Origin: Robertmurraya massiliosenegalensis JC6
GTDB taxonomy: Bacteria > Bacillota > Bacilli > Bacillales > Cytobacillaceae
Assembly: GCF_000311725.1 (NCBI RefSeq)
Contig: NZ_HE978519.1
Span: 28,848-92,847 of the forward strand
DNA length: 64,000 bases
Reading direction: 5' to 3'
Shown: positions 15,570 to 32,861 of the stretch, in pieces
Numbering within the stretch: position 1 is the stretch's first letter
How the letters are laid out: the number at the start of each line of letters is the position of its first letter
Made by a program: the position numbers and the translations under genes
The notes under the pieces: model-generated
Database searches by the model: none
What the model was told of the DNA's origin: nothing
Seen by the model: the letters and a program-made list of their open reading frames with translations, nothing else

Positions 15570-16478
15570 TTATGGATAGAAAATCATAGGATCATATGGA
15601 ACACCATTTATTCTAGTTTCAAAATGCAAATGAGGACCAGTTGAATATCCAGTTGACCCAACAAGACCGATTACTTGACCACCTACTACCTCTTGACCTT
15701 TTGTTACATTCATAGAGTTTAAATGTGCATATCTTGTTTCAAAACCACCCCCATGATCAACAATGACTATATTTCCATATCCTGTTATTGTTCCCGCAAA
15801 AATCACCTTCCCATTTGTGGCTGAAACAACAGGTTTATTCAATATCCCTTCGATTGCTATATCTACTCCATTATGTGGTTGATACACATTTTTAATTGGA
15901 TGAAAACGATTTGGATCGAAAGGTGATGTAATATTTCGAGTAAAAGGAACAACCCAAAATAATCCGTTTTCGTTTGCTACTATTCCTTCGATGACCGTAG
16001 TTGGTGGACTTGCCTTTCTATCTAAATTCACCTTATAGGTATAGGATGCTACCCTCCTAACTGTGTGTTCTGAATTTCTATTGAAGTATTTATCAACGTT
16101 CGTTTCAATAATGGCTACAATAGTGGGGCTTGTGAAAGTATCTTGAAAATTTAAAGAAGTTGCATTATAAGTGACTGGAAAAACTGAATTTGATTCATCC
16201 AAAACCTCAAATTCTATAATCTCGTAATCACTCTCTGTAAGACCTGTATTTTCATTAAAACTTTCTTTAAAAGCTTCCTTAGCTTTCGCATAATCAAAAG
16301 CAAATTTTCCTTGAGCTAATGAAAGTTGATCCAGGTGTAAGGCTGCGTCATGAACTGCTATTTCTAAATCTTCTTTTAAATATTTAGTTGCTCTTGCATG
16401 TGTAGATAAATCCATATTTGTCACAAGCCCCATAATTGCCATAACGACAACAGCTAATATTTTTACGATCAGATTCAT
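15570..16478 (-). CDS. Pseudopilin-like protein fused to M23 peptidase
   Basis: A 302-residue two-part protein. The N-terminal ~150 residues start with a hydrophobic helix (MNLIVKILAVVVMAIMGLV) followed by an amphipathic helix (LEIAVHDAALHLDQLSLAQG), as in TadE/TadG/TadF pseudopilins. The C-terminal ~130 residues form an M23 (LytM) metallopeptidase: PHNGVDIA and GPHLHFE carry the zinc ligands His/Asp and HxH, with the conserved YGNIVIVDHG between them. M23 enzymes cut peptide cross-links of peptidoglycan. The gene ends the Tad-like cluster, 12 bases after the TadE-like gene. A wall-opening tip or base component is an attractive reading. Confidence 0.75.
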   Translation of the reverse strand: MNLIVKILAVVVMAIMGLVTNMDLSTHARATKYLKEDLEIAVHDAALHLDQLSLAQGKFAFDYAKAKEAFKESFNENTGLTESDYEIIEFEVLDESNSVFPVTYNATSLNFQDTFTSPTIVAIIETNVDKYFNRNSEHTVRRVASYTYKVNLDRKASPPTTVIEGIVANENGLFWVVPFTRNITSPFDPNRFHPIKNVYQPHNGVDIAIEGILNKPVVSATNGKVIFAGTITGYGNIVIVDHGGGFETRYAHLNSMNVTKGQEVVGGQVIGLVGSTGYSTGPHLHFETRINGVPYDPMIFYP

Positions 16479-16490
16479 GCTATTTCCACC

Positions 16491-16871
16491 TTAATCCTTA
16501 TACTCGCTAAGAATTGTTTTTTGAACAGTGAAGGGTTCTGACGTATCAATTTTAAATAGGTCTATTACTGTCATTAGTGGTTTCGGAACAGTTATTTTAA
16601 TAGCTAGTTTCTCTCCTCTAGGCGTGAGTGTTTCAGTCCCATTAATTTCGATCAGTTCTGGTCTATAATTATGGGTCTCTACAAGATAATCTCTCATTTC
16701 TTTGTATATTTCTTCGTCATATCTCCCTTTTAAACTAGCTTCTTTCTGTCCTTCATATATTGCTAGTTGTAATGATTCTTCAATCATCACTGCATTATTG
16801 TAAAGGGGTTGTTGGAAAATAGACCAAACAATCAAAGGTAGCAGAAGAATAAAAGTTACTACTTGTTCCAA
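16491..16871 (-). CDS. TadE-like minor pseudopilin
   Basis: A 126-residue protein with an N-terminal hydrophobic helix (VVTFILLLPLIVWSIFQQPLY) followed by a long amphipathic helix and a small beta-rich end. This is the general plan of TadE-like proteins of Flp/Tad pili. Start is TTG at 16871 with AGGAGGG at good spacing. Located between the short pilin-like gene and the pseudopilin-M23 fusion. Family assignment rests on plan and context. Confidence 0.5.
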   Translation of the reverse strand: MEQVVTFILLLPLIVWSIFQQPLYNNAVMIEESLQLAIYEGQKEASLKGRYDEEIYKEMRDYLVETHNYRPELIEINGTETLTPRGEKLAIKITVPKPLMTVIDLFKIDTSEPFTVQKTILSEYKD

Positions 16872-16892
16872 ATCAAATATCCCTCCTATATT

Positions 16893-16926
16893 AAAAAATC
16901 AAGCCATTGACTATTCTCAATGGCTT
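16893..16926 (-). terminator. Terminator/attenuator after the pilin-like gene
   Basis: Stem AAGCCATTGA / TCAATGGCTT with a 6-base loop, followed on the minus strand by GATTTTTTAATA. It would make the short pilin-like gene more abundant than the downstream TadE-like and M23 genes. Confidence 0.7.
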
Positions 16927-16952
16927 TTATAAACAATTTGTTTTCCTGGCAA

Positions 16953-17147
16953 TTAGGTTAAAATGATTGGTAAAGAGTTAGTATCTTCTTGCTCGTAGTT
17001 GAAGGAACTTACATTTGTATTCGTAATTGTATTCTGAACTTCTGTACCTTTTCCAGTGATTGCAGGTGTAAGTTGATTAATAACTACCAATAAGAACAAC
17101 GCGATTGCAGCTACAATTAATAACGTTTTTACAATAATACTTTCCAT
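16953..17147 (-). CDS. Short pilin-like membrane protein (Flp-like)
   Basis: A 64-residue protein with one N-terminal hydrophobic helix (residues ~5-28) and a short polar tail rich in Asn/Thr, the size and plan of Flp-type major pilins. The usual prepilin cleavage site (Gly followed by Glu at +5) is absent, so processing would have to differ. Placed after TadC and before TadE-like and M23 genes, and followed by a terminator that favours its own expression. AAAGGAG precedes the ATG. Confidence 0.5.
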   Translation of the reverse strand: MESIIVKTLLIVAAIALFLLVVINQLTPAITGKGTEVQNTITNTNVSSFNYEQEDTNSLPIILT

Positions 17148-17179: not shown

Positions 17180-18067
17180 TTATAAAAGACCGTTTGACAT
17201 ATAACCACTGAACATATTGAATACAAAAAATACAAGCCAACCAATGATTACTACACTGGTGAATGTGAAGAAGGTAAAGATAACTGTTTTTTGTTTGCCA
17301 GTATATCTTAGTTCATTTTCATAATAGGTAAATGAAAATACGTTCGATTCTGCTTCAATAATTTTTAAAGCTTCATCTTTAGTTGACTTATCTAATTTAA
17401 TGAGAATATCACCTAGTATTTTTGCTGTTTCACCTCCAATTTCTTCATATAAAACGTTTTTCGCTTTTTCAGGTGACACTTTCCAAAGAGATAATATTCT
17501 AGAGATACTGCCCTGTATATGTTCAAACATGGGTAAAGATTCTCTCAAAATACTATAAACATTCACCTGTTGGGATGACTTCAAAGTATATAAATCAGCT
17601 TTTAATAAATCAAAAAGCGTAAAAACCTCAATTACCCTTTTCTTTTGTCTATTGGCTACTAAGCTATTTAAAATGATAGAAACAAGCGAATATTTTAATT
17701 TTGGTTCAGTCAGAAAATATAATCCAAGTGGATAAAAAATGTTATATAAACTGAAATCATCGCTCAATAGTGGTGCTACTACATAAGCCACTATTACAAC
17801 TAAAATTAAGCACCATCTCAATACATAGAATCTAACAGCATTAAAATATGATATTCCAGTTGCCTTTAATCTTTTTTGTAATAGCGACTCTTGGCTCTCT
17901 TTAACAAATTTTTCTTTCTTTTCTTTAACACCTTTTAATGCTCTTAATCTATAAATTCGTCTTTCAGACAACGTAGTGATGTTTTTATATATGTGTATTG
18001 TTCCTAAAATGATAAGAGTTAAATAAAATGTGTAGAGAATTATTTTTACAATTAATGAACTTACTAT
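17180..18067 (-). CDS. TadC-like inner-membrane pilus assembly protein (likely ATA start)
   Basis: A T2SSF-type membrane platform protein of Tad/Flp pili. It contains a transmembrane pair near FYVLRWCLILVVIVAYVVAP, a long cytosolic region with LLKADLYTLKSSQQVNVYSI and GGETAKILGDI, and a C-terminal transmembrane helix. With a TTG at 17971 it would have 263 residues, but the frame stays open upstream and adds a further N-terminal membrane helix (SLIVKIILYTFYLTLIILG) typical of TadC. The only codon at the correct distance from a perfect AAAGGAGGG is ATA at 18067. It follows TadB by 40 bases. Confidence 0.75.
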   Translation of the reverse strand: MVSSLIVKIILYTFYLTLIILGTIHIYKNITTLSERRIYRLRALKGVKEKKEKFVKESQESLLQKRLKATGISYFNAVRFYVLRWCLILVVIVAYVVAPLLSDDFSLYNIFYPLGLYFLTEPKLKYSLVSIILNSLVANRQKKRVIEVFTLFDLLKADLYTLKSSQQVNVYSILRESLPMFEHIQGSISRILSLWKVSPEKAKNVLYEEIGGETAKILGDILIKLDKSTKDEALKIIEAESNVFSFTYYENELRYTGKQKTVIFTFFTFTSVVIIGWLVFFVFNMFSGYMSNGLL

Positions 18068-18107: not shown

Positions 18108-19085
18108 CTAAATATCTGCTCTTGGTTTACTAGTGATGTAAGCTGTTAGTACAGATATAACGCTCATGCTTACAGCCACAATGAAAATCGAGAATGAAGT
18201 CTTTTCAAAAAAGAAATGCCAAAAATCACGAATTCCGGTAATACGATAGGCTAAAAAAACAATTAAAGGTAATAGCGCTATAGGCAAGTATCCCATCATG
18301 ATTGTTTCAAGTTTATCGGTTTTAGATACTTGCATATCCTTTTGTCTTTTCTTTATGTCGTTATTTAGGTCATTTAAGGGTAAGGAAATGTCTGCTCGAT
18401 CTATCTGTGCTTTGATTAGTAATTTTGCAAATCGTTTAGCGTGAGTTGAGTTGATTGAATATGAAAGAACAGTAATCGCCTTTACAAAAGCTTCTTCACT
18501 TCTTTCTTTTTGCATAGAAGATAGCAATTTTTGATATATCTTTTTGAGGTCTCTATCTTCTGTATCTTTAATTACATTCATGATCGTGTAGTAAATATCT
18601 CTACCTGTACTTTGATAATTTTGAAGTAATGCATGGTATTCATTTAAAAAAGCAAGCTGTGTTCTTAGTCGTAATGTTGTTAACCGTAGCCTTATCACGA
18701 TATAGGGAATACTTGTAAATACAATGCTAGTGAACAAAGAGAAAAGTATATCGCTAATTGATAACATTAACGCAGTTATACTGACTGAAAAAATTACCCC
18801 TATCAAAAATAAGAAATTAAACACATTCGCCTTTTCTTCTTTCTTTGAAATTGCGTTTAAAAGCAGTTCTAAGTGTTGAAAAATTGGATTTTGTGTATTC
18901 GATTTTTTCGAGTCCTCCGTTTTATTTAATTCATTGAGCCTTTTTAAACGTCGATTTCTTTTCCATTTCTTAAAACCTTTTTCAAGCTCATTTTGTAAAA
19001 AAGGACTTCCGATTAATAGCCATAATCCGTAAATAGCAAGTGAATACGAAACTATTTTTAAGAGAATTTCTAATACCTCAAACAT
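18108..19085 (-). CDS. TadB-like inner-membrane pilus assembly protein
   Basis: A 325-residue T2SSF-family protein. It has an N-terminal hydrophobic segment, a basic linker (KKWKRNRRLKRLN), two membrane segments around residues 90-125, a cytosolic helical domain (LRTQLAFLNEYHALLQNYQS, IDRADISLPLNDL), and two C-terminal membrane helices. TadB and TadC form the membrane platform that works with the CpaF ATPase. It starts 10 bases after cpaF on the same strand with AGAGGTG before the ATG. The order CpaF-TadB-TadC is the classic one for Tad clusters. Confidence 0.8.
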   Translation of the reverse strand: MFEVLEILLKIVSYSLAIYGLWLLIGSPFLQNELEKGFKKWKRNRRLKRLNELNKTEDSKKSNTQNPIFQHLELLLNAISKKEEKANVFNFLFLIGVIFSVSITALMLSISDILFSLFTSIVFTSIPYIVIRLRLTTLRLRTQLAFLNEYHALLQNYQSTGRDIYYTIMNVIKDTEDRDLKKIYQKLLSSMQKERSEEAFVKAITVLSYSINSTHAKRFAKLLIKAQIDRADISLPLNDLNNDIKKRQKDMQVSKTDKLETIMMGYLPIALLPLIVFLAYRITGIRDFWHFFFEKTSFSIFIVAVSMSVISVLTAYITSKPRADI

Positions 19086-19095
19086 CGCTTCACCT

Positions 19096-20526
19096 CTAGT
19101 CTTTGAAAATTATTTCTTCTACTGTTTCCTCTGTAATAGGATGTAATTTACTCATTTTCAGTAGATGAGAAATAACTTTTTCGGCTCTTTTTTCGTCAAA
19201 TTTAAAAATTTTCTTTTTCAATTCATAAGAAATATTGCTATTGTATTCCCAACAATCACTTTTTTCGTTATATTTTATTAGATAATTAATCCATGCTTTA
19301 TCTGTCATTCTGTTGTAGCAGACTTCATAAACAGTGGTTATTTTCTTTTGGTTTCCCTCAAATGTTTCCATTGTGATACCGATATCCAACTGTCTTGATA
19401 CCCTTCTAATTTCATTAGATAGTCGTCTGTTAGGAAATTCATCTACGATGTGGCCCGCAATTTGTTCTGGAGTATTAGCTGGGTCGGTAATATGGTAAGT
19501 CATTAGCAAACCTGTGGAACCTCTCTCTGTTGCTTTCATTGCTCCCTCAGCCTCAATTCCCCTAACTTCTTGAAACATGATAAAGTCATGGTCAATTCTT
19601 AAAGCTAAGCGTATAGTTCCTTCGATATCATCTAACGTATAAAGGTCATGTACTAACCTTTCTGGGAAGTCTCGCTTAAAGTACGATTCGGGAGAAGGTT
19701 CTATATTAACAGCTACTTTTTGAGAATCTCTCGCACCGTAAAATGTTTTTAACATTGTCGATTTCCCCGATTCAACATGCCCTGCAATGATTGTGTTTAA
19801 ATAGAGTTTTGAAAGATCGTTGAAGAATTCAACATCCTCTAATGCAATGGTTTTTCTTTTTGCTTGTTCCAAAAATGAAAAACTCTTGACAATAAACCTT
19901 CTAAACACGATTACTGGTTTAAAAGATGCAGGAGGAATGGAGATAGTTACCCTTGTTCCATTCTTCATCTCAATTTCTGCTCGTGGGTTTGATTCATTAA
20001 TTTTGAATCCTTTATTTGCAACTTCCAAAGCTCTAAGGATTTCATAAACATGTTCATCATTTCTTAATGTTTCTTGCTGCTTTACAAATTGACCATCCAC
20101 TTTAAACCATATTTCTTTTCCTATGATTTTCGCAGATGGTGAATCTGCTAATTTTTCCCATTTATAAAAAACTCCAAAACCATATATTTCATGAAAAATT
20201 GCACTAGCAAGAGAATCAAAGAAATCATAATGCGTGATACCTTGTAAATTGTTTTGTTGAAGGAATTCTTTAATTTCGGGTACTAATATACTTTGTGCTT
20301 TTTCATCTCCTAATATGGCGTTGTGTTCAATCTCTTGGCGTATTCTCTTTTCTTCATCCGTCAAGCGATCACTTGTATAAAGTTCCTCAAAATACTCCTT
20401 AACTAAAATAACAGCTTCTTGGAAATCGTTTTTTCTGACTTTCTTTTCTTCTTTTTCTTCTTCAAAAACTCTGTTTGTATCAATAAAATCATTAATATCA
20501 AATATTACTGGTGAATTTATTGTCAT
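19096..20526 (-). CDS. CpaF/TadA-family secretion ATPase
   Basis: A hexameric ATPase of the GspE/VirB11 superfamily that powers Tad pilus assembly, or substrate export as in VirB11. In the 476-residue protein the Walker A is GHVESGKST (residues 249-257), the Walker B region is DHDFIMFQEVRG (~312-323), and a His box TYHITDPAN follows. The N-terminal ~190 residues match the CpaF N-domain with an acidic linker. The first P-loop residue is Gly rather than Ala. It is the only VirB11/CpaF-like ATPase seen, so it might serve both the Tad-like platform and the neighbouring T4SS. Confidence 0.88.
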   Translation of the reverse strand: MTINSPVIFDINDFIDTNRVFEEEKEEKKVRKNDFQEAVILVKEYFEELYTSDRLTDEEKRIRQEIEHNAILGDEKAQSILVPEIKEFLQQNNLQGITHYDFFDSLASAIFHEIYGFGVFYKWEKLADSPSAKIIGKEIWFKVDGQFVKQQETLRNDEHVYEILRALEVANKGFKINESNPRAEIEMKNGTRVTISIPPASFKPVIVFRRFIVKSFSFLEQAKRKTIALEDVEFFNDLSKLYLNTIIAGHVESGKSTMLKTFYGARDSQKVAVNIEPSPESYFKRDFPERLVHDLYTLDDIEGTIRLALRIDHDFIMFQEVRGIEAEGAMKATERGSTGLLMTYHITDPANTPEQIAGHIVDEFPNRRLSNEIRRVSRQLDIGITMETFEGNQKKITTVYEVCYNRMTDKAWINYLIKYNEKSDCWEYNSNISYELKKKIFKFDEKRAEKVISHLLKMSKLHPITEETVEEIIFKD

Positions 20527-20537: not shown

Positions 20538-21683
20538 CTACCCTCTACTAAAGAGTCTTTTTTTCTTCTTACCATTTGGTTGTGTAAGTTCAATTCCTGT
20601 GGCTGAAGATATAGACTTGGCAATGATATTAATAGAGTCCTGGTATGTGCTATACTCATTCATTTCATAATTATATAAAAGAGTTTGCTCTTTCTCTGCA
20701 ATACGACCATAGTTACTTTCTTCAATCGTAGTTAACATCGGAACGCCAATCTCTTTGTTAATTTCTTTGCTATTCATCAATCCAAAATCATCATGATAAT
20801 TATTAATGACCATTAAAAAATCAGATTTTTTGTAGCCGATCGGATATAACACATCATCATAAAATTGATTGAATTTTTTTATTGCCTTGTTTTGCTGATT
20901 TACTATCAAGAATCTTAAATCACTTTCTGTTAACGATTGAACCATTAAGGCATTATCGAAGTGACAACCACAGTCTATGAGAACAATGTCAAAATACTCT
21001 TTTGACAGCTCAATAAGATAGTTAACCTCTTCTTTTTTAAAAAGCCTTTCCATACGAGTGTTCTTATTCCCACCAAGAACATATAAAGAATCTTTTTCAA
21101 CCATATGGAATAGGGATAAAAATTCGTCTTGATTACTAAGTAGTTGACTTGCCAATCTTGTTTTAATTTCATGCAAATAACTTCCTCGATAATCTAATTG
21201 ATCCGTTCCATCATCCCAAGCATTTAATAAGAGCACTCCTATCTTGTCCTTTGAATGACTCGCTAAGTGTTTAGCAACACTTAAACAGGTAGTCGTTGTT
21301 CCGACGTTTCCAATAGACGAAAGGAAACAAAATACATTTGAACTATTATATTTCAAGGGATTGATAGTTTTTTCTATTACTTCAATAATTTGATCCGCTA
21401 CTAACCTTGATGGTACGAGAACAATATCACGACTTTCACAAAACGCTTTCACTATTCTTTCTAAATTAGGCTCGTAATGATTTTGGAGCATATAGAAGGT
21501 CTTTTTTGTTTTCTGCAAATCCAGATTCGATAACTCGTCATAGGATAATAAGGTATCTGAGATTAAAAGATAATCTTCCGTAACCTTATCTAATGAGTGT
21601 ATAGTTACCACTTGTTCAAAGAGGTTTTTTTCTTTGATTTTAGAAATCAAAATTTCGTCTGCTGATAAAACTTGTAATTTCAC
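20538..21683 (-). CDS. CpaE/TadZ-like protein with degenerate P-loop
   Basis: A 381-residue MinD/ParA-fold protein. Residues 1-110 are a small receiver-like domain; from ~115 the fold has the MinD pattern, but the Walker A position reads SIGNVGTTTT (123-132) in place of KGGxGKTT, lacking both the signature and the catalytic lysine. The later VLIDCG-type motif (FDIVLIDCGCHF) is kept. CpaE/TadZ proteins localize Tad machinery at poles, and some members have lost ATPase activity. GTG start after AAAGGAG. It lies between the CpaB-like gene and cpaF. Confidence 0.7.
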   Translation of the reverse strand: MKLQVLSADEILISKIKEKNLFEQVVTIHSLDKVTEDYLLISDTLLSYDELSNLDLQKTKKTFYMLQNHYEPNLERIVKAFCESRDIVLVPSRLVADQIIEVIEKTINPLKYNSSNVFCFLSSIGNVGTTTTCLSVAKHLASHSKDKIGVLLLNAWDDGTDQLDYRGSYLHEIKTRLASQLLSNQDEFLSLFHMVEKDSLYVLGGNKNTRMERLFKKEEVNYLIELSKEYFDIVLIDCGCHFDNALMVQSLTESDLRFLIVNQQNKAIKKFNQFYDDVLYPIGYKKSDFLMVINNYHDDFGLMNSKEINKEIGVPMLTTIEESNYGRIAEKEQTLLYNYEMNEYSTYQDSINIIAKSISSATGIELTQPNGKKKKRLFSRG

Positions 21684-21708: not shown

Positions 21709-22500
21709 TTATCTTTCATATTTATAAACAACATATAATTTGTACCCTTTTTCTGTATATTCTCTTAGTGTTTTTAACTTTTCTTCATTAGCGATTATCT
21801 CAATGTTTGCAACCGAACCAGTTGTTGCATTAGTATTTTCCTCAATTTCGCTTACTTCGGTGTTTGATTTATCTTTCACCGCAGAAACTCGAACATCAGC
21901 AAGTATTGGTTTATAATCACCTATTATTTTCATGTCTGACAGTTCACTATTATTAATTGGCTTTTTGTTTGTAACTTCTTCATTGTTCTCTGAGGTATCT
22001 GATGCTTCTGCTGTTACATTATTTTCATTTTGTTTTTGTGCATCAACCAATAACGAGCGAATTACATCTTGTTCTTGATCTGGTATTGCATAAAAATCAG
22101 CAATGAAAGTCCTCCTTAATGAACCAGGGACAGCAAACAACCAACTTTCGGGTACAGGAGCTATAAACTCTCCTTCTTTTTCATTAGGAATCAAATTATA
22201 TTCATCAATTAGTTCAGAATATATTTGTGTACCTTTTTTTATCGAAATCGCTGCGTTCTTATTAAGGACTAATCCTGTGTCTGTTGGGATAATAGCGTCC
22301 TTAATCATATTGTCCTTTCTAATGGTCACAAGTTCTGTATTTTCCTCTGTCAGTAATTCTTTGAAGCTAATATCCTCTTTAGCTACTAAAACATCAACGG
22401 TGTTAATCTTTTCGCTAAAGTAAAATTCATACGATATTAGCGATCCTATTCCTATCCCTAAAAACAACAATGGAACAAGAATTTTTGCTACCTTTTTCAT
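21709..22500 (-). CDS. CpaB/RcpC-like SAF-domain protein
   Basis: A 263-residue membrane-anchored protein: N-terminal helix (ILVPLLFLGIGIGSLISYEF), then an SAF-like domain (NTVDVLVAKEDISFKELLTE, KGTQIYSELID), and a C-terminal beta segment. CpaB proteins are periplasmic/cell-surface parts of Tad pili. AAAGGGG precedes the ATG. It is the first gene after the strong terminator at 22626-22661 and has the TTGGCACT-type promoter element, so it opens the Tad-like operon. Confidence 0.65.
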   Translation of the reverse strand: MKKVAKILVPLLFLGIGIGSLISYEFYFSEKINTVDVLVAKEDISFKELLTEENTELVTIRKDNMIKDAIIPTDTGLVLNKNAAISIKKGTQIYSELIDEYNLIPNEKEGEFIAPVPESWLFAVPGSLRRTFIADFYAIPDQEQDVIRSLLVDAQKQNENNVTAEASDTSENNEEVTNKKPINNSELSDMKIIGDYKPILADVRVSAVKDKSNTEVSEIEENTNATTGSVANIEIIANEEKLKTLREYTEKGYKLYVVYKYER

Positions 22501-22554: not shown

Positions 22555-22590
22555 AGTATAGATAAATTTTTCAAAGGCAGAGTGCCAATA
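22555..22590 (-). promoter_or_regulatory. TTGGCACT-type promoter element of the Tad-like operon
   Basis: Minus strand: ATTATTGGCACTCT, with the -10-like box TATACT starting 22 bases after TTGGCA. Three further copies with the identical spacing are found at 32905-32940, 39893-39928 and 40013-40050. Confidence 0.55.
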
Positions 22591-22625
22591 ATTTTTCTCT
22601 AGTAAATTTTCCATTAGCGAAAAAA

Positions 22626-22661
22626 CAAAAAAAGGAACGAACCTTTATTCGGCTCGTTCCT
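22626..22661 (-). terminator. Strong terminator at the end of the T4SS operon
   Basis: Stem AGGAACGA / TCGTTCCT with a 13-base loop and eight T residues on the minus strand. The stem overlaps the stop codon of the CpaE-like gene at 22660. Confidence 0.88.
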
Positions 22662-24529: not shown

Positions 24530-25101
24530 TTTTCTTCTCCCTCACTTTCAATGCTAATTAGATTTTCTTCAAATTCGGTTATAGATTGAATTTTTCTTTC
24601 TTTTACGACTGAAGTATAAATAAATGGTGTTTTATTTTCTAAAGTTGCAATAGTTATTTCATATGTCTGTTCATTTTCGTCACCCTCACCATTAATTAAT
24701 TTTGCTTCAACACCTGTTGGGGTGTAACCTTTCATAAACATTTTGTAAATTATTTCACCTTTCTCATTTTCAGTTAAATCTTCTCTATCAAAATAGGAAT
24801 CAACTATATTGTTTCCTATACATTCATAGGATTCTAATGCTTTTGCAGTTAAAATACATTGGCAAATCGCATACATTAGTTGTTCATGATATTCTGTGTC
24901 AGAAACCGTTGGATATGAATTTTTGGACATTTCAGCTTCTTCCTCGCTACTTATGGAATAACCATCCTTCAACATTCCATTTTTGTCTATCGGATTTTTC
25001 TTTTCTTCATCTATTCGTGCTGTAATCATACTTCCGACTATTTCAATTAGCAATAATACTACGATACCAATCCCTATTAAAGATGCCATTTTACTATTCA
25101 T
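24526..25101 (-). CDS. Membrane-anchored protein of the T4SS block
   Basis: A 191-residue protein with an N-terminal transmembrane helix (SLIGIGIVVLLLIEIVGSMI) and an extracellular domain of ~160 residues with Glu-rich start and beta-strands near the end (QTYEITIATLENKTPFIYTSV). It could correspond to a TcpC/VirB8-type or lipoprotein-like component, but no motif supports a firm name. It is coupled to both neighbours: 15 bases after the hydrolase gene, and overlapping the next ORF. Confidence 0.5.
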   Translation of the reverse strand: MNSKMASLIGIGIVVLLLIEIVGSMITARIDEEKKNPIDKNGMLKDGYSISSEEEAEMSKNSYPTVSDTEYHEQLMYAICQCILTAKALESYECIGNNIVDSYFDREDLTENEKGEIIYKMFMKGYTPTGVEAKLINGEGDENEQTYEITIATLENKTPFIYTSVVKERKIQSITEFEENLISIESEGEEK

Positions 25102-25116: not shown

Positions 25117-26505
25117 CTAAGCATCAGGCAGTATTCTTCTCACATGACCTTCAAATCGATCAGAATAATATTTTTTACTTAAGTTTTCAATAGCAACTCC
25201 CGTTGAAGATTGAGAACCAATCCATTTACCATTACCAATATATATTCCTACGTGTCCATCTCTTTTATAAGTATTCCAGAATATTAGATCACCAACTTTA
25301 ATCTCGCTAATAGATACTTTTCTACCCATTTTGTTCAAAGTTTCTGTTGAAGTTCCGGTTAACGGTCCTAAATCGATCCCTGCTTGTGCATATGCCCAAT
25401 GCACAAAAGATGAACAATCAAAACGCCCATTAAGGATGTCAAATTGGTTACGACCACCACCAAATACATATTCTGATCTACCTATATATTTTGAACCTAC
25501 GCTTGCAACGATTTTAGCAGCTTCACTTACATCACCATCAAAAGCTATATCTAGGCCATTTGCATAGGCTTCACAGTTCATCGTAAGCCCACCAAGTTGT
25601 GTAACAATCTTTGTTACATTTGGAACCCAATGATTATTTAGTCCACTTGGATCGTTTGCTGCACCTACTGGAGCATACTTTGAGCCTAATTGTTCAATTG
25701 TTGTTAATCCATCCTTAATAATGCGATTGTGTAAAGTTCTAGACATACTTTCTAGTCCTTCTTCTAAAGTAGAAAATTCGTAAAGTCCCGAGCTTCCCAT
25801 TAATCCACCTGGATTATTTTTATTCATAATTGCAGGAGATGTACCATTCCCTGTTTCATGAAAGGCGATCGCTGCAAAAAGCACTGGATCAATACCTTGT
25901 TTCTCTGATAAATCTATAATAGTCTGTCCATAGGAACTTAACTTTCCTGCACTAACAAAAGCTGTATCCCAATGTGACTTTTCAATTTCTTTGGTAGGTG
26001 AGCAATATGCACCGCCACCAATACCACCAAAATAGAAATTTGCTAATTGAGGATATTCTTCTTCGATCAACTCTGAGTCTATAATATCTTGATAATACTC
26101 TTTTTCCTCTTCTGTTAAGCCTAAATCTTCTATTGCCATTTCGGGTGAAAGGGTTGTTACTGTTAAACGCACGTTCTCTTTTTTATCAATATTTGCAATG
26201 GCTGTGATAATATCACTATTCGACTCTTTATGAGATTTGAAAAATTCTTTTAGTTGTTCTTTACCCTTGTATGTATTTCTTTCAAGAATTTCTTCGGGAA
26301 TCTGTACAAAGCTTAAACAATAACCATCTATATCAATTTCTACACAACTAGATTCAGCAGGTTTATACTTTTCGTAAGTAATAGTTAGAAAGTGATAGAC
26401 TATGTCATTGAGTTCATAGTCAAGTAAGTTCTCATTTTCATATAAAACCATTTCTAATGCGACAAGCCATACAGGATTTATTTTGAATTTTTCCCCAAAA
26501 GTCAT
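25117..26505 (-). CDS. Glucosaminidase-like plus NlpC/P60 cell-wall hydrolase (VirB1-like)
   Basis: Cleaves peptidoglycan to let the secretion channel through the wall. The 462-residue ORF contains a glucosaminidase-like domain around residues 195-290 (GIDPVLFAAIAFHETGNG, NNPGGL, and the SMSRTLHNRI helix) and a C-terminal NlpC/P60 domain with Cys in RFDCSSFVHWAY (~363) and His in GHVGIYIGNG (~418). The first ~160 residues (INPVWLVALEMVLYENEN) are typical of Tn916 Orf14/CwlT-like T4SS hydrolases. It lacks a membrane anchor of its own; the anchor is encoded in the ORF immediately upstream in the other frame. Confidence 0.85.
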   Translation of the reverse strand: MTFGEKFKINPVWLVALEMVLYENENLLDYELNDIVYHFLTITYEKYKPAESSCVEIDIDGYCLSFVQIPEEILERNTYKGKEQLKEFFKSHKESNSDIITAIANIDKKENVRLTVTTLSPEMAIEDLGLTEEEKEYYQDIIDSELIEEEYPQLANFYFGGIGGGAYCSPTKEIEKSHWDTAFVSAGKLSSYGQTIIDLSEKQGIDPVLFAAIAFHETGNGTSPAIMNKNNPGGLMGSSGLYEFSTLEEGLESMSRTLHNRIIKDGLTTIEQLGSKYAPVGAANDPSGLNNHWVPNVTKIVTQLGGLTMNCEAYANGLDIAFDGDVSEAAKIVASVGSKYIGRSEYVFGGGRNQFDILNGRFDCSSFVHWAYAQAGIDLGPLTGTSTETLNKMGRKVSISEIKVGDLIFWNTYKRDGHVGIYIGNGKWIGSQSSTGVAIENLSKKYYSDRFEGHVRRILPDA

Positions 26506-26525: not shown

Positions 26526-26792
26526 CTATCGCATCATCAATTTCCTTTTTTCTTTTACTTCATCCTTAGAGAAATCGGGTGTTAGGATAGCGATTATCAC
26601 AACTACTATAAGGAGGATTGCTAGGAATCCCCCCCATATCGGTGAAGTTTTTAATAAAATACCTCCGATGACTTTTTTAGTTGCCTTCATTGCAAACTTT
26701 TTCGTTACATTTTTAAGAGCGTTACCCGCTTTTGACAAACCTTTTTTAGCTAGATTTTTTGTTGGATCATTTTGTTGATGTGAGTAACTCAT
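26526..26792 (-). CDS. Membrane anchor ORF, probably the N-terminal part of the wall hydrolase
   Basis: An 88-residue ORF with a basic N-terminus (KNLAKKGLSKAG, NVTKKFAMKATKK) and one transmembrane helix (IWGGFLAILLIVVVIIAIL). T4SS wall hydrolases normally begin with such a basic region and helix. One extra A in the six-A run at 26549-26554 (or a -1 shift there) would join this frame directly to the hydrolase ORF with no stop between. It overlaps the VirB6-like stop by 4 bases (ATGA). Confidence 0.7.
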   Translation of the reverse strand: MSYSHQQNDPTKNLAKKGLSKAGNALKNVTKKFAMKATKKVIGGILLKTSPIWGGFLAILLIVVVIIAILTPDFSKDEVKEKRKLMMR

Positions 26793-28945
26793 GGCTGACC
26801 ACTCGAACGAGTTCGATTTTGCATCCCTCGAGTTGCATTTGCATGATTATTAATAGCTTCAAGGTTTTTTTGTCTCCTTTGTTGTTGTTCAGCGTAAAAT
26901 CTAGCTCTTTTTTCTTTCATTTTTCTTACTTCTTGCTCTGATGTGAGGTAATTTACGTTCTGCTTATGGTAATCTTCTTTTTTCGCTTTTGCTTCAACAC
27001 TACCTTCACCATGTTGGGCAACAGCAACTTCTAAGTCTTTCTTTGCAGACATTTGTTGATATTTTAAAGGGATTAAGCCTTCCTCTTTTTGTCCTATTTC
27101 CCAATCTAAATCTCGTTGTTGATTGACTAAATCATAATTTTCTTTAGAAGGTTCATAATGGTCTTTCAATAGTGCGTCGTTAGTATAGTTTGCGTTTCCT
27201 ATTACACTACCAAGTGTAGATCCTGTCCATCCTCCTATTAATTCTTCTCCCATTCTTTTCATTTCTTGAGGATTACTTAATTGAGATTTATCATGGAAAC
27301 CTAATCGTTCTTTTGTAAGATCCATTACTCCTAAACCTTGTGCATTACTTTGTATTCCTTCACCTAGAACTTGTATACCTTTACCTGTTTTCCCTTTCAT
27401 AGAACCAGCTACATAAGCGCCACCTAACCCTACTGCTCCACCTATAACTGTTCCATTAGCACCTTTACCTGAAACCATTGTTCCTGCCATTGCTCCTAAT
27501 GCTGCCATTCCTCCAACAGCAGTCACCCTTCCTATTCTTCCTAAATTTGGATTTTTAGCCATTTTCTTTCCAGTCTTGGCTAAATTACTCCCTACTGCGG
27601 CCATTCCTCTAGGGCGTGATTTAGTTAAACCATTACCCACTGGTGCAGAACCGACACCTTGATTAGCCATAGCTTTGGAGTCTGTGGATTCCCCTCCTGC
27701 CATAGTATTAGATTGTCCAACGGAATACCCATTTAGGTCTCTATCGGTTTGACCTCTAACTCCTTCAGCAGTTTTAGTTTTATTCTCCAATACGTCTTTA
27801 GAAGAACCACCTTTTTCTGAGAATATACCTTTTGCCATCATTCCTACGCCCATTAATCCAGCCATTCCACTACCATTAGCTATACTTCGACCTAATCCTC
27901 CGCCGCCATCTCCTTCACCAGTGAAACCACTGACAATTCTTTGTACTAGATCAGACATTGCAGGTAAAGCAAAGAACATTGTAAATACAAACCAAAAATT
28001 CAAATCTTCTGCATTAGATATTGCAAAGAAAAATAGACCAAGAGCAATTGCATGAGCACTTTGCATAAATATTTGGCTAGTGAAATTTGTAAACCATGTA
28101 TTCAACACATTTCTTCGAGATGGGATAATCGCACTAAGAATGACTAGTGGGAATAAAGCTACAAGCATTCCAAGTGTAATCATTCTCATCATGTACTGAT
28201 AATTTAAAATGAAGGTCATAAACAAAGCACAAACAACTAATATTGCAGTTGTAAATGAACCCGAACTCATTACATCTTCCGTTTCCGTAGGATTCCATAC
28301 TGTCGAGAGGAATGATGTTACCTCTATGCTTTGTCCTTTTAAGGCTACATAAACAGTGTCCACAATAAAGTAATTTATTCTGATTATCCAGTCCCAAGCG
28401 ATATGCCCGAATCGAAGTAATAAAGTAGTTATAACGATTCCGAATAATATCTCTTTCGCTTTGGACATTGATTCGGGATTTTTAAGCAAATCTAGTAATA
28501 ACACCAAACCACCTAATGCTATTAGTACCACAACTGGAATAGGCAATAAAAATATAAAAATATCATAGATCCTTGCTATACCGTTAAATAGACCTTGTGG
28601 AAAAACACCTAACGTTAAGTCGTCTCTAAATGCATTTGCTTTGTTCTCAAGAAGAGAATCATCTTCATTTATGACGTCTTCTCTTTGAAAGACAAGAACC
28701 GATACATCTTGTGCTTGCATAATAGCGATAAGACTATTCGCTACATTTAAGAAGAACTTTGATAAATGTTTTTCCACTAAGGCAGGTTTTCTATCTTCCT
28801 CATTCTCTGGATCAAGTACAGGGGTATAGTCAGCCAAAGCACTAATAGGCTGCATTAGAATTGTCATTAAAAACAACCCTATTAGAACTTTTTTGATGAA
28901 TGACCGTTTATTTTCGTTTTCGTGACTTATACGCATAATAAGCAT
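26789..28945 (-). CDS. VirB6/TrbL-like polytopic T4SS membrane protein
   Basis: A ~718-residue protein. It has a signal-peptide-like N-terminus (VLIGLFLMTILMQPISALA) and at least six membrane segments up to about residue 345 (e.g. IFLLPIPVVVLIALGGLVLL, LGMLVALFPLVILSAI, FVFTMFFALP). A long Gly/Ala/Met-rich region follows (VGMMAKG, GGMAALGAMAGTMVSGKG), and the chain ends in a charged, Gln-rich coiled-coil tail. This is the plan of Gram-positive VirB6/TrbL-like channel proteins. Its start overlaps the 3' end of virB4. ATG at 28945 is taken; another ATG is at 28936. Confidence 0.75.
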   Translation of the reverse strand: MLIMRISHENENKRSFIKKVLIGLFLMTILMQPISALADYTPVLDPENEEDRKPALVEKHLSKFFLNVANSLIAIMQAQDVSVLVFQREDVINEDDSLLENKANAFRDDLTLGVFPQGLFNGIARIYDIFIFLLPIPVVVLIALGGLVLLLDLLKNPESMSKAKEILFGIVITTLLLRFGHIAWDWIIRINYFIVDTVYVALKGQSIEVTSFLSTVWNPTETEDVMSSGSFTTAILVVCALFMTFILNYQYMMRMITLGMLVALFPLVILSAIIPSRRNVLNTWFTNFTSQIFMQSAHAIALGLFFFAISNAEDLNFWFVFTMFFALPAMSDLVQRIVSGFTGEGDGGGGLGRSIANGSGMAGLMGVGMMAKGIFSEKGGSSKDVLENKTKTAEGVRGQTDRDLNGYSVGQSNTMAGGESTDSKAMANQGVGSAPVGNGLTKSRPRGMAAVGSNLAKTGKKMAKNPNLGRIGRVTAVGGMAALGAMAGTMVSGKGANGTVIGGAVGLGGAYVAGSMKGKTGKGIQVLGEGIQSNAQGLGVMDLTKERLGFHDKSQLSNPQEMKRMGEELIGGWTGSTLGSVIGNANYTNDALLKDHYEPSKENYDLVNQQRDLDWEIGQKEEGLIPLKYQQMSAKKDLEVAVAQHGEGSVEAKAKKEDYHKQNVNYLTSEQEVRKMKEKRARFYAEQQQRRQKNLEAINNHANATRGMQNRTRSSGQP

Positions 28946-30986
28946 CACTCACTTCTTGTAATCTATCTGGATTCGTTTCAAACAACATGGCTTCATGGAG
29001 AGATGAAGAAACTTGAATAATACTGCGTTCTTCGTTAATTCGTAAAATTCCTAATCCCTCACCAGCTTCATGTACTAAAAAATCAGCTTCATATTCCGTT
29101 AGATTGAATTTACCTTGAATATCACCAATATCTATTGAGTCTTGTTTCAAGAATAGCTTTGTAGGTGCATTTTTTAAAATTCCTAATCCAAATTCAGAAC
29201 GAGTAAATACTTCGAAACCTTGTGTTATTGCTAACATAGAAGTATTAAAAAATCGAACAATCCTATATTCTGCTTCTAGCCATTGTGCAGTTTCTGGGTC
29301 TTCCATTGGAATTTGTGCTTCATCAACTACTAATCGCTTACGAATATGTCTATCTTTATGACTAAATTTAGTAGATAGCCATTTGGTAGCTATGAATAAG
29401 CCTAAAGGTTTCATAATATCTGCATCTAAATTTGAAAGACCAAAAGCAAACAAAGGAGTATCTTGAATTTTTACATTTGATTGAGTATCAAAAATAGCCT
29501 GTGTAGGAGAATCACCGTATTTGGTAAAGTTCTTAAGTAATTCTGCAACAATTTTTGTCTCTTGATCTTCCTTTAATAATTGGTATAACTCTCCAATTGT
29601 CGGCATGTCTTTCAATTCTTTCTCTAATGAAAAATGAGCATTCCCATTTTCATCAGTATTCGTTACTCTTTCGGCCTTATATAATGATTCGGGGGACTGT
29701 GTAATTCCTTTATTTCGATAAAGTTCTCGAATTTTGTTATCAATTCTTACTTTTACAATCCCTGTCAAACTATCTTCATCAAGAATTTTAATCATACGAT
29801 AAACGATTGCACGAGCAGCAATAATTGTATCTTCTAAGTTCACGCGTCTTACTGTCTCACCATTAATAACCTGTTCTTCAACATCTACATCAAAAAAGTT
29901 AATTTTAAACGGACTTTCTGGACCGAGGTCAATATATGGGCAATTCATCGCTTTAACATATGTGGCATAGTCACCTTTGGGACAAATTATACAATGCTTA
30001 ATTCCACGTAAAGTGTCATGATGTACCAAACGAAGCGTTGAAAATGTTTTACCCGCTCCCGAACCACCAGTAATAACACCGTTCCGATTCATCAAAGACC
30101 GATCCCAAGCATCGTAAAAAATTGGTCTATTTAGATGATCTCGCCCCCAAATAATCCCACTGTTATGCGATATTTTTCCGTTTCCAAATGGGAAAAAATC
30201 TGCTATATTTGATGTTTCATAACTAAAAGTATGTTCTTTATAAAATGGATTATCAGCTAAAGGAGTGATGTTCAATAGAGCATCTAACTGTTTACCATCT
30301 GGGGAACGTAAGATAATATCATTCCCACTGAATCTTCGGATCATATTATTAGAGAATTTTTTTAAAGCCTTTAATTCCGTTGCAGATGAAACAATCTGTA
30401 AACTAACTCTAAATGGTTTCTCTATGTTCTGACGCAAACGTCTTTGTCTTGACTGTAAATCGTGTAATTCGTCTAACAATTTATCTCTTTTTTCATCTGG
30501 CATATCACGATAGAGATCTGATTTTATCCCTCGAATACGCTTCCCTACTTCTTCTAATTCATCTGTTGTTTCAACAGGATCAATGTGAATTGCTAGGTCT
30601 ATATCTCCTTGTCCGAACTCCCCAACTAATAAGGGGTTTAACATCCCTGCGATAGTTGAACCACTAGTAATCTCCGCATAATATGAACGGAAATACCTAG
30701 CAAATTCATTCGTACCGCCTATTTCCACATAATAATCATTTACTTGCGTTCCATCGAATGTTATATCAGTTGGAATTGTTTCTTTAATCATAGAAGGAGC
30801 AACAAAGTCAATTCCTTCTGCTTTTGTTTCTTCAGAGCGAACAAAGTTTGGCAATTTTTCTTCCTCATGATTTTCTTTGGTTATATCAATATTTGTTTTA
30901 TCTTCAGTTGACGACCTACGAGTTTCTTTTGTTTGTTCCTGTTTTTTTGTTGATAATTTACCTTTTTTCTTTGTGAAAATCCCCAT
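28908..30986 (-). CDS. VirB4-family T4SS ATPase
   Basis: An energizing ATPase of conjugative transfer. In the 692-residue protein the Walker A is GGSGAGKTF (~307-315), the Walker B is RLVVDEAQIPM, and a conserved C-terminal HEAGEGLGILRI segment follows. The N-terminal ~80 residues are charged and disordered; residues ~83-240 match the VirB4 N-domain (VNDYYVEIGG, GQGDIDLAIHIDP). GGGAGGG precedes the ATG. It sits between a VirB4-N-like membrane protein and the VirB6-like gene, the usual order in Gram-positive T4SS operons. No VirD4/TcpA coupling ATPase is visible nearby. Confidence 0.9.
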   Translation of the reverse strand: MGIFTKKKGKLSTKKQEQTKETRRSSTEDKTNIDITKENHEEEKLPNFVRSEETKAEGIDFVAPSMIKETIPTDITFDGTQVNDYYVEIGGTNEFARYFRSYYAEITSGSTIAGMLNPLLVGEFGQGDIDLAIHIDPVETTDELEEVGKRIRGIKSDLYRDMPDEKRDKLLDELHDLQSRQRRLRQNIEKPFRVSLQIVSSATELKALKKFSNNMIRRFSGNDIILRSPDGKQLDALLNITPLADNPFYKEHTFSYETSNIADFFPFGNGKISHNSGIIWGRDHLNRPIFYDAWDRSLMNRNGVITGGSGAGKTFSTLRLVHHDTLRGIKHCIICPKGDYATYVKAMNCPYIDLGPESPFKINFFDVDVEEQVINGETVRRVNLEDTIIAARAIVYRMIKILDEDSLTGIVKVRIDNKIRELYRNKGITQSPESLYKAERVTNTDENGNAHFSLEKELKDMPTIGELYQLLKEDQETKIVAELLKNFTKYGDSPTQAIFDTQSNVKIQDTPLFAFGLSNLDADIMKPLGLFIATKWLSTKFSHKDRHIRKRLVVDEAQIPMEDPETAQWLEAEYRIVRFFNTSMLAITQGFEVFTRSEFGLGILKNAPTKLFLKQDSIDIGDIQGKFNLTEYEADFLVHEAGEGLGILRINEERSIIQVSSSLHEAMLFETNPDRLQEVSDAYYAYKSRKRK

Positions 30987-31002
30987 TTGTTTCCCTCCCC
31001 TA

Positions 31003-32013
31003 CTAATTAGTTACTTCCGCTAATTCCTTTTCTTGTTCCAAAGGATTTTGTTTTACATGTTCAAAATCATTAAAGTTTAAATCGTCGTTTATAATTGTCT
31101 CAGGGTTTTCAGTGGTCATATGAATAACATTAAATCCTTGCATTTTAAGAGACTCATATTCAGCCAATTCTTCAACAAGAAACGGTGTTTCAGAAAATTT
31201 GAATTCACTAAATGAACTAGCTCTTGCTGCATCATCTAACCTTTGTGCTAGAGTTAAGTCTCGATTTAACGTCATATAGACCATATTTAATACTCCTGTA
31301 CGATTTAGACGAGTGGCTCTAATTCCCATTCCATGAAATAATTGATATGCTAGATCTGTCACTTCTTCTAATATTGAATTAGCTAAATCTTGGGCTTCTT
31401 CTTCACTCATACTTGTAGCTTTTTGCCTAGTTTTGTTTATTAATGAATTAAGAACCGAGTTACCTGTATCTAACCCTTTTTCTAATCCTTCCTTATAAGG
31501 ATTAAATCGGAATATCGCATAGCACCTTACTTCTCTTGTTTTTACCTCTGCAAACTCCCGATAATTGTCAAGAACTTCCTCTCTAGCTTCACTAAATTCT
31601 TTGGTTAGATTATCGAGTTTTTCTGATTCTTCTTCATAGTTATTTATAAAATCAGTCATATCCAAGTATTGAGACTGGACTAACAATGTATTTCGAATGC
31701 TTAAAGCGTTAATCAAGCTTCTAAATTTCCGCCAAATAGAGGTATTTTCATTTGCATTATTTAAACGTTGATTTATTTCTGATAATTCAAGAATTGCTGT
31801 AAATGTCCCATCATTTAACTGAGTAATTCCTTTATCAGAAATCTCCTTGTACTCAAACAATTCTTGTACTGTTTCCTTCTTGGCTTTCTTAGCTTTTGAT
31901 GATTTATCCCCTTTTTTATTTTTCTTGTTGTCTTTCTTTGATGTGAATAGTGAGTAAAGGAAATACCCGCCGACTACGACGAGTATGATTAATCCCACTA
32001 CTTGCATGTTCAT
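31003..32013 (-). CDS. Membrane-anchored protein resembling a VirB4/TraC N-domain
   Basis: A 336-residue protein with an N-terminal transmembrane helix (VVGLIILVVVGGYFLYSLF) and a Lys-rich linker. The folded part begins GITQLNDGTFTAILEL and continues with NTLLVQSQYLDMTDF and a coiled region, much like the N-terminal domain of VirB4/TraC ATPases, but there is no P-loop. It precedes the complete VirB4 by 16 bases. Stand-alone relatives occur in Firmicute conjugation operons (TrsD-like); the exact role is unknown. Its start overlaps the stop of the PrgI-like gene. Confidence 0.55.
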   Translation of the reverse strand: MNMQVVGLIILVVVGGYFLYSLFTSKKDNKKNKKGDKSSKAKKAKKETVQELFEYKEISDKGITQLNDGTFTAILELSEINQRLNNANENTSIWRKFRSLINALSIRNTLLVQSQYLDMTDFINNYEEESEKLDNLTKEFSEAREEVLDNYREFAEVKTREVRCYAIFRFNPYKEGLEKGLDTGNSVLNSLINKTRQKATSMSEEEAQDLANSILEEVTDLAYQLFHGMGIRATRLNRTGVLNMVYMTLNRDLTLAQRLDDAARASSFSEFKFSETPFLVEELAEYESLKMQGFNVIHMTTENPETIINDDLNFNDFEHVKQNPLEQEKELAEVTN

Positions 32014-32354
32014 CTACTTTCCACCTCGTTTACAGAAGGCATGTTTTTTCTACGATAATAGAAGGTTCGGTTTCTAGCCTTTAGTTTTATTTTTGTTAAA
32101 ATTAGTTGGAACAATGATAAGTTGGTTTTTGGGTCTTTAAAAAACGCAAAAACTAATGAAATAATAATTGGAATAAACCAATGTACTCTATCAAATATCA
32201 GTGAACCCAATGGTAATTTCGGGAAAATTTGAGCTACTTGATAGGTCCCCATAATTCCAGGAGCCAACCATAACAGTTGACTCCAAGAGAAAGGACCTAT
32301 GATTGCTTCTTCAACATTACTGTTATAAGGGACTTCATGGTATTGTCCGTACAC
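32010..32354 (-). CDS. PrgI/VirB3-like T4SS membrane protein
   Basis: A 114-residue protein: N-terminal YHEVPYNSNVEEAIIGPFSW, two hydrophobic segments (LLWLAPGIMGTYQVAQ; WFIPIIISLVFAFF), and a basic C-terminal tail (KLKARNRTFYYRRK). The 'VP.......I.G..SWRQ' start followed by two helices is the hallmark of the PrgI family, which stands in for VirB3 in Gram-positive systems and precedes VirB4. GTG start after AAAGGACGAGG. Confidence 0.8.
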   Translation of the reverse strand: MYGQYHEVPYNSNVEEAIIGPFSWSQLLWLAPGIMGTYQVAQIFPKLPLGSLIFDRVHWFIPIIISLVFAFFKDPKTNLSLFQLILTKIKLKARNRTFYYRRKNMPSVNEVESR

Positions 32355-32396
32355 AGAATATCCTCGTCCTTTCTTTACTTCTATTTAGTGTTCAAA

Positions 32397-32861
32397 TTAA
32401 ATTTTTACTCCGAAAATACCTAATATTGCTCCAAGAATTTGCTCTGTAAAGAAGATTAGCGCTATCGCTAAAATTAGACCTCCCATACGACCTTTCATAT
32501 CTGCGAGACCTTCTGCTGATTTTTTAATAAATAGTGAATAAGCCATTAACATAATTAAGATTATCGCTACTACTATTGCAATATCACGAGCGAATTTGAC
32601 TAAGGTATTACCTGCTGAATCAACAGTTTTCTCTAATTGGTTCAGATTACTTCCAGACACCTTGCTCTTTAAAGAAGCTTCAGCAACATTTGTTAGTTCT
32701 AAATTAAATTGATGTGAAATTACCTGTCCGATTCCTAAAGACAAGACTAAAACCGCAAGTAGTACAATTAGAATTTTTTTAATTAAACTTCCTTTATTTT
32801 CAACAAGCTCCATATTCATATCTCCCTCTTGTTTATTTGGCTGTAAAGAAATTTCTTTCAA
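32397..32861 (-). CDS. VirB2/TrbC-like pilin or channel protein of the T4SS
   Basis: Up to 154 residues: a signal-peptide-like helix (IKKILIVLLAVLVLSLGIGQ), a polar middle, and two membrane helices (IAIVVAIILIMLMAYSLFI; GGLILAIALIFFTEQILG), resembling TrbC/VirB2-type proteins. It is the first gene of the T4SS operon. TTG at 32861 follows AAAGGGGGGAG with ideal spacing; ATG at 32819 after GAGGGAG is the alternative. A TTGGCACT-type promoter lies ~70 bases upstream. Confidence 0.6.
   Translation of the reverse strand: MKEISLQPNKQEGDMNMELVENKGSLIKKILIVLLAVLVLSLGIGQVISHQFNLELTNVAEASLKSKVSGSNLNQLEKTVDSAGNTLVKFARDIAIVVAIILIMLMAYSLFIKKSAEGLADMKGRMGGLILAIALIFFTEQILGAILGIFGVKI

Follow-up and report, generated by a model that had tools for sequence, protein, structure and literature searches.

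On IncI/R64 plasmids and on PAPI-1, type IV secretion system (T4SS) proteins and a separate type IV pilus are encoded by one mobile element; the pilus aids mating of IncI plasmids in liquid and is essential for PAPI-1 (PMC12857230; here and below, statements on published systems refer to the excerpts available of the papers cited). Plasmids of Cutibacterium acnes carry a tad locus beside VirB4, FtsK and TcpC genes, a link to conjugation that its authors termed unclear, and the N-termini of some of the TadE proteins are not signal peptides; TadE1 keeps a motif resembling a cleavage site (PMC5696575). In Sulfobacillus thermotolerans, the plasmids pL15 and pY0017 combine CpaF, TadB/TadC, VirB4, a relaxase and TraG on one backbone, which was named T4SS plus type II secretion system (PMC6803676), and on the conjugative plasmid pAW63 of Bacillus thuringiensis a VirB11-labelled gene of 444 amino acids is next to genes of 278, 250, 121, 84 and 100 amino acids (PMC1196294). 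No other type IV filament system is borne by plasmids as often as Tad (PMC6668835). The 64,000-nucleotide stretch analysed here (i.e. the window, G000:C9:28848-92847) is part of contig C9 (119,641 bases; 119.6-kb) in the 4.96-Mb, 24-contig genome of Robertmurraya massiliosenegalensis JC6. On its minus strand, positions 15570-32861 hold an operon for a Gram-positive T4SS and, 3' of it, a Tad-like set, each preceded by a short element, TTATTGGCACTCT. This arrangement is probably a mating pilus encoded together with its transfer machine under the shared element.

The features are given below in gene order, from 32861 towards 15570 and beyond (L and G numbers are labels of loci and genomes).

39917-39929, minus strand, and 40014-40026, plus strand: divergent pair TTATTGGCACTTT
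32929..32941, minus strand: exact TTATTGGCACTCT before the T4SS operon, beginning 80 bp 5' of the virB2-like open reading frame (ORF)
32397..32861, minus strand: VirB2/TrbC-like pilin (PF04956, E 0.0011, below cut-off; homolog in relative L040)
32010..32354, minus strand: PrgI, VirB3-like (PF12666, E 0.0015, below cut-off; homologs in L040, L051 and L054)
31003..32013, minus strand: N-terminal part of VirB4 as a separate gene (NF045971 N-terminal, 1.3e-8, below cut-off)
28908..30986, minus strand: C-terminal ATPase of VirB4 (PF19044, 47.7 bits, over cut-off)
26789..28948, minus strand: VirB6/TrbL-like membrane protein (PF19597, TrbL_4, E 0.033, sub-threshold; homologs adjoin VirB4 in L040, L051 and L054)
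26526..26792, minus strand: 88-amino-acid ORF with a single hydrophobic stretch, an open frame within the operon
25117..26505, minus strand: NlpC/P60 cell-wall hydrolase (PF00877, 85 bits, over cut-off)
24526..25101, minus strand: 191-amino-acid ORF with an N-terminal transmembrane segment (no family matched; no homolog found)
24152..24529, minus strand: 125-amino-acid membrane protein, in our reading of VirB2-like topology
22660..24150, minus strand: CpaE2, second CpaE-like gene and final gene of the T4SS unit (iterative-profile cross-match to CpaE)
22633..22661, minus strand: terminator-like hairpin between the T4SS and Tad units (11 pairs, T tail)
22579..22591, minus strand: exact TTATTGGCACTCT before the Tad operon, beginning 91 bp 5' of cpaB
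21709..22500, minus strand: CpaB/RcpC-like protein with SAF domain (TIGR03177, E 0.0027, below cut-off; homologs)
20538..21683, minus strand: CpaE/TadZ-like ATPase (PF13614, 1.3e-4, below cut-off; homologs)
19096..20526, minus strand: CpaF/TadA motor ATPase (PF00437, 41.5 bits against a cut-off of 24.9; best PDB match of profile A3 is CpaF)
18108..19085, minus strand: TadB-like platform protein (PF00482, T2SSF, 0.04, and 7.9e-5 in the Planococcus homolog, both below cut-off)
17180..17971, minus strand: TadC-like platform protein (no Tad-type Pfam match; homologs in the same place in relatives)
16953..17147, minus strand: short pilin-like protein, leaderless, with a hydrophobic helix from the first residues (Flp 0.054, sub-threshold)
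16491..16871, minus strand: TadE-like pseudopilin, leaderless from a TTG start (homologs in relatives; no Tad-type Pfam match)
15570..16478, minus strand: TadG-like pseudopilin fused to an M23 peptidase, leaderless (PF01551, 112 bits, over cut-off)
14586..15464, minus strand: surface protein with C-terminal transmembrane anchor (from sequence; homologs 3' of Tad in L045 and L053)
11976..14585, minus strand: PKD-domain surface protein (PF18911, over cut-off; homologs 3' of Tad in L045 and L053, also in pNe-1)
C9:103866-105674 (L010:11867-13675), outside the window: VirD4-type coupling protein, 602 amino acids (PF02534, 55 bits, over cut-off)

VirB4, VirB6, PrgI and a wall hydrolase occupy a single gene run, as in Gram-positive T4SSs (VirB6 and PrgI sub-threshold alone), and CpaF/TadA stands with TadB and TadC in another, as in Tad/Flp systems (TadC by homology to relatives only). 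A preliminary description of the locus had placed the Tad-like set directly 3' of the T4SS and co-directional with it, with a second CpaE-like gene closing the T4SS operon, and both statements were borne out. Profile searches of each gene upheld its identities over Pfam cut-offs for CpaF, M23, NlpC/P60 and the C-terminal part of VirB4, whereas the others were sub-threshold or without match; several T4SS and Tad assignments, below cut-off alone, were made from homologs in relatives and the gene order there. Iterative profiles were cross-contaminated for PKD, type IV coupling protein (T4CP), M23 and NlpC; these cross-matches were discarded and cleaner profiles substituted.

The same element had been described in front of both blocks, and the copies there are exact. 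A third exact copy of TTATTGGCACTCT lies outside the window, 465 bp 5' of the ORF preceding the coupling-protein gene and ~42 kb from the T4SS; 0.005 exact copies were expected on contig C9. The pattern TTATTGGCACTYT gave six matches in the whole genome, 6/6 on contig C9 and 0/6 within ORFs of >150 amino acids, as compared to 0 for a reversed control. By length, the chance of all six sites falling on this contig was 2e-10, or ~3e-7 without the two pattern-defining sites (our arithmetic). A TTATTGGCACTYT-N13-TTTGCTA-like sequence is common to all six, and its TA is invariant; this layout appears promoter-like and fits no sigma factor that we could name. A sigma-54 promoter was rejected, the GG/GC spacing not fitting in our reading. 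With two mismatches allowed, six matches were present in the window against 2.15 expected, and therefore only near-exact sites were counted. The sixth copy (G000:C9:119539-119551), near the contig end, is 403 bp 5' of an ORF that seemed to us to resemble a restriction-type gene. The element would drive the T4SS, Tad and coupling-protein operons. In two Planococcus plasmids, the relax/coupling-protein, S1, CpaE2-Tad and T4SS operons are preceded by a leader hairpin that resembles a terminator, with GGGAGCACCCC and its complement followed by a run of T; a further copy adjoins an integrase gene. Matches numbered five against 0.31 expected in L055 and four against 0.47 expected in L053, with one more in L130. 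These plasmids may follow the same regulatory logic by another device.

Recurrence of the pairing was assessed in 21 plasmids taken from the 33 leading Bacillota-type CpaF plasmid matches, near-duplicates and a few others being left out; the VirB4 match list preceded this choice and some of the 21 are also on it. Addition of two VirB4-picked records (W02 and W05) gave 23 plasmid records. VirB4 profile A1, which matched the solved VirB4-like structure 4ag5 with 224 bits, detected VirB4 in 23/23, and in 21/21 of the CpaF-picked plasmids on the same record (19 at E<=1e-50), so that the pairing recurs. Among 193 genomes of the family, CpaF (E<=1e-30) was found in 19 and VirB4 (E<=1e-30) in 34, with VirB4 in 19/19 CpaF-bearing as compared to 15/174 CpaF-free genomes (Fisher 2e-17, the genomes being related). 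Both genes were on the same contig in 17/19 and on two contigs in the drafts G034 and G055. When a wider CpaF profile was applied to the 15 remaining VirB4 genomes, a CpaF-like gene was present on the VirB4 contig in six (G052, G067, G169, G182, G185 and G190) and on another contig in G050, and fragments were present in G154. A stop-broken VirB4 (G049:C2:329935-331967) was seen in a genome also carrying CpaF.

A separate scan of 20 loci, at least seven of which are, by equal positions, elements already in the family-genome set, found the order CpaB-CpaE-CpaF-TadB-TadC-pilin-TadE-TadG in 20/20 and a coupling protein <=10 kb 5' of the block in 10/20. A1 matched in all 20 genomes, the sole match in Heyndrickxia sporothermodurans being its coupling protein. 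In Halobacillus locisalis, TcpC and an ATPase of TcpF-like type (331.7 bits, below the model cut-off) are encoded on a contig equal in size to the Tad contig. CpaE2 lies immediately 5' of cpaB in 38/48 loci (some overlapping; one, L054, belongs to a peptidase-bearing plasmid), and on this count its being a T4SS gene unique to this plasmid was rejected. The coupling-protein gene is next to Tad in several relatives, and relaxases over the PF03432 cut-off lie <= ~1 kb 5' of CpaE2 on the Alicyclobacillus plasmids of A. fastidiosus and A. mengziensis; PF03432 was also matched in pNe-1 and, below cut-off, in C. gottheilii. A MobQ relaxase, VirD4, TopB and Tad are co-directional in Heyndrickxia and likewise in pNe-1. 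The shared element, the recurrent co-occurrence and these relaxase and coupling-protein neighbours support the T4SS and Tad genes as a single group in function and regulation.

The window pilin begins MESIIVKTLLIVAAIALF, with an in-frame stop codon directly 5' of its ATG, and the Flp prepilin leader, cut at G before xxxxE(Y), is absent from it. In 20 curated blocks, the median number of residues before the hydrophobic helix was 3 for 49 pilins, 2 for 20 TadE and 0 for 20 TadG. Across 44 loci (some overlapping), this helix began <=10 residues from the longest possible start in 108/117 pilins, 36/44 TadE and 39/39 scorable TadG (3/42, without a transmembrane segment by threshold, were omitted). 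An upstream stop leaves <=12 codons before the helix, whichever start codon is used, in 67/117 pilins, 32/44 TadE and 38/39 TadG. As a counter-indication, in the longest frame a G/A-xxxx-E/D motif precedes the helix in 2/117 pilins and 5/44 TadE, including that of the window, in which nine upstream open codons contain a G-xxxx-D/E-like pattern. Compared with paralogs, the longer exceptions seem to us to have starts set too far upstream. Pilins, TadE and TadG are mostly without leaders and without the E5 motif. Many relatives have two to five tandem pilin-like genes.

An A24 peptidase was encoded on 5/23 plasmid records, 18/23 being without one. Classic leaders were present in four of the five (two Brevibacillus, P. 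polymyxa and Thermoanaerobacterium, the last with its peptidase ~40 kb from the Tad block) and also in G067 outside the set; leaders in the classic-leader elements had medians of 17, 12 and 10 residues. In the fifth, Rossellomorea AcN35-11, the block is leaderless and the A24 distant. No A24/TadV peptidase was found on contig C9, in agreement with its reported absence from the window, and two are present on other contigs of the genome. The chromosomal Tad locus of the host (G000:C2:286502-294371, L150) is classic, with a leader on Flp and a neighbouring A24 peptidase, and served as an internal control. Processing of plasmid pilins by the peptidase of this locus would be possible in principle, but a site for it is absent from the window pilin. 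Leaderless pilin, TadE and TadG in the window and in most relatives would seem to be new; among the papers listed by a literature search for leaderless pilins, restricted to open-licence papers, none used the word.

Other genes of the contig bear on its nature and control.

36069..36743, minus strand: plasmid NusG paralog (PF02357, 23.5 bits, over cut-off)
8916-9989: Replic_Relax/MarR-like ORF (below cut-off)
5420-6769: TubZ-like GTPase gene (PF00091, 31.1 bits, below the cut-off of 33)

The TubZ-like gene and the relatives suggest that contig C9 is a plasmid; comparison of its two ends gave no overlap. TubZ homologs were seen near the coupling protein in L046, L048, L053 and L055, and a replication-relaxation gene is annotated in L053 and L055. 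The NusG paralog, beside RecD2 and 5' of the T4SS in the window as in L040 and L051, makes antitermination of the transfer operons possible. A Pfam scan of 44 window ORFs gave no coupling protein, in keeping with the preliminary description, the one on the contig being outside the window. It is adjoined by an S1-domain protein, and this combination recurs 5' of Tad in many relatives. Within the T4SS operon, VirB4 is split into two adjacent genes, as in several relatives (it is undivided in others), the NlpC/P60 hydrolase would have a VirB1-like role, and the 191-amino-acid ORF might be guessed from its fitting topology alone to be VirB8-like. For the 125-amino-acid protein, a search of just six sequences gave weak similarity (E 0.0016 and 0.0037) to ORFs within T4SS runs of Brevibacillus. 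The iterative TadB profile also matched TadC of relatives, most TadG relatives (~160-180 amino acids) are too short to contain M23, and the PKD-domain protein is likely an adhesin. An Rfam scan of the window gave 0 matches. At 10601-11317, PF16848 (a putative Dot/Icm substrate family) scored E 0.00025, below cut-off and probably by chance.

The roles of the single proteins follow established knowledge of Tad systems and T4SSs. In the reading favoured here, the locus would serve a large plasmid of the Bacillaceae type as its mating apparatus. The T4SS (VirB2, PrgI, VirB4, VirB6 and hydrolase, with the coupling protein encoded ~42 kb away) would move DNA, and the Tad-like block would build a thin type IVc-like pilus. 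CpaF would power TadB/TadC, and the small leaderless pilins would be lifted from the membrane; CpaE and CpaE2 would position the machine and CpaB would align it. TadG-M23 would open the wall and the PKD surface proteins would aid sticking of cells, so that the pilus could reach and pull in a recipient, with transfer through the T4SS next. The filament presumably forms, retracts and serves mating, and transfer presumably occurs.

Several observations weigh against a mating pilus with its own transfer machine. Leaderless pilins might not form filaments. The window element was sought in relatives and not found. Matches to VirB4 were weak in two of the 21 plasmids (B. velezensis, 7e-9; P. sonchi, 6e-12), and three of the 21 (W01, W03 and W06) had supplied rows to A1 and so match by construction; kinship among the tested genomes means that the Fisher value of 2e-17 overstates the association. 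In 7/15 genomes (G065, G093, G115, G125, G132, G145 and G158), the wider profile found no CpaF-like gene on the VirB4 contig and, therefore, such T4SSs also exist without Tad. Tad without a T4SS was nearly encountered once: in H. sporothermodurans, Tad is accompanied by the MobQ relaxase and by VirD4, and no VirB4 was detected with A1, a profile that reaches TcpF-type VirB4 only weakly and could miss another type. This Tad copy is chromosomal and its cpaE is interrupted; extra DNA (L151 6348-8961 and 12388-14993) splits cpaE and parts tadB from tadC. As the preliminary description had it, no relaxase was seen in the window, PF03432 giving 0 matches genome-wide (other relaxase families were not searched genome-wide). 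Finally, identities of CpaF and VirB4 correlate overall (Mantel r 0.62, 0/2000 permutations as high), which fits a tighter coupling.

Such a coupling could take the form of one hybrid channel, with CpaF as the VirB11 of the T4SS and TadB/TadC and the pilins as an extracellular conduit. This would accord with that correlation, the shared TTATTGGCACTCT element and the requirement of PAPI-1 for a type IV pilus and VirB4/VirD4 (PMC12857230), as well as with the genome scan, in which PF00437 was matched on contig C9 only at CpaF, the sole VirB11/GspE-type ATPase as previously claimed. The CpaF profile A3, however, scored 203 bits with solved Caulobacter CpaF against 111 bits with VirB11, and CpaF as VirB11 was rejected on this basis; single-protein NCBIfam scores of the window CpaF were near equal (49.3 and 48.4). 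The modules also swap. Between the window and pNe-1, CpaF is 62% identical and VirB4 20%, whereas the closest VirB4 seen (61%, G068 contig C204) is from a genome with a CpaF of 26% likeness. Across 32 elements, 11 pairs combined CpaF >=45% with VirB4 <30% and 21 pairs VirB4 >=40% with CpaF <32%, a few elements accounting for many discordant pairs (eight VirB4 were the longest ORF of the match locus and one CpaF, of Rossellomorea AcN35-11, was truncated). Tad was also paired with a TcpF/TcpC-type T4SS in Halobacillus locisalis. Tad would therefore appear to change T4SS partners yet nearly always to have one, and this swapping favours two cooperating machines over one; a hybrid channel is unlikely. 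Of the hybrid machine proposed in the preliminary description, the functional and regulatory grouping stands (element, co-occurrence and neighbours), but not the physical hybrid with CpaF as VirB11, CpaF being Tad-type and the modules shuffled.

A short pseudopilus or secretion pump for the wall hydrolase or adhesins, aiding transfer in that way without a filament, would suit the general lack of leaders and E5 motif and the fusion of the TadG-like protein to M23. The tandem pilin-like genes of many relatives suggest a bulk subunit instead, and sheared surface fractions of C. acnes contain TadE2, a protein with an N-terminus other than a signal peptide (PMC5696575), making this explanation distinctly unlikely. 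A pilus that serves adhesion or biofilms independently, as plasmid cargo unrelated to transfer, would be consistent with the adhesin-like genes 3' of Tad and with the frequency of Tad on plasmids (PMC6668835); sharing of the element by Tad, T4SS and coupling protein, the relaxase and coupling-protein neighbours and the near-constant company of VirB4 render it quite improbable. Tad pili have been reported for DNA uptake and transformation in other bacteria, but the association here is with transfer genes (no search was aimed at uptake genes), and a DNA-uptake or contact-sensing pilus is very improbable.

If the Tad-like blocks do build mating pili, many Bacillota plasmids would be conjugative and mis-typed, Gram-positive bacteria would own a plasmid-encoded reach-and-pull pilus of the sort so far best known from Gram-negatives, and, with leaderless subunits, the rule by which a prepilin peptidase is required for type IV filaments would be broken. 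The pairing suggests a little-noticed way for Gram-positive plasmids to reach partners. It is tentatively proposed that these plasmids form an unrecognised, widespread Gram-positive conjugative class, with a peptidase-free mating pilus of leaderless pilins that is portable between T4SSs under common control. Pairing of T4SS and Tad had already been noted on the Sulfobacillus and C. acnes plasmids; among the open-licence papers listed by the literature searches, none was seen to describe a single class in which regulation is shared, T4SS partners are exchanged and subunits are leaderless.

As compared to Tad/Flp (type IVc) systems, the window has CpaB, CpaE, CpaF, TadB, TadC, short pilin, TadE and TadG in the same order but differs in having no leader, no peptidase on the contig, an extra CpaE2 and a TadG-M23 fusion; by leader and peptidase, its apparatus falls short of full membership in the Tad family. 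The C. acnes plasmids, although from an Actinobacterium, share the tad and VirB4 pairing and some TadE without signal peptide. For Sulfobacillus pL15/pY0017, no analysis of mechanism, leaders or regulon was found in the excerpts available. The pAW63 genes match the small Tad set by size and are not labelled Tad there, the parallel consisting of these sizes and of similar runs in G169, G173 and G190. IncI/R64 and PAPI-1 are Gram-negative elements, whereas the window is Gram-positive; R64 has the prepilin peptidase PilU, whereas the window contig has none. The pilus of R64 and PAPI-1 is of the T4b rather than the Tad kind. By analogy, the window apparatus nevertheless seems rather likely to work as the pilus-plus-T4SS of R64 does.

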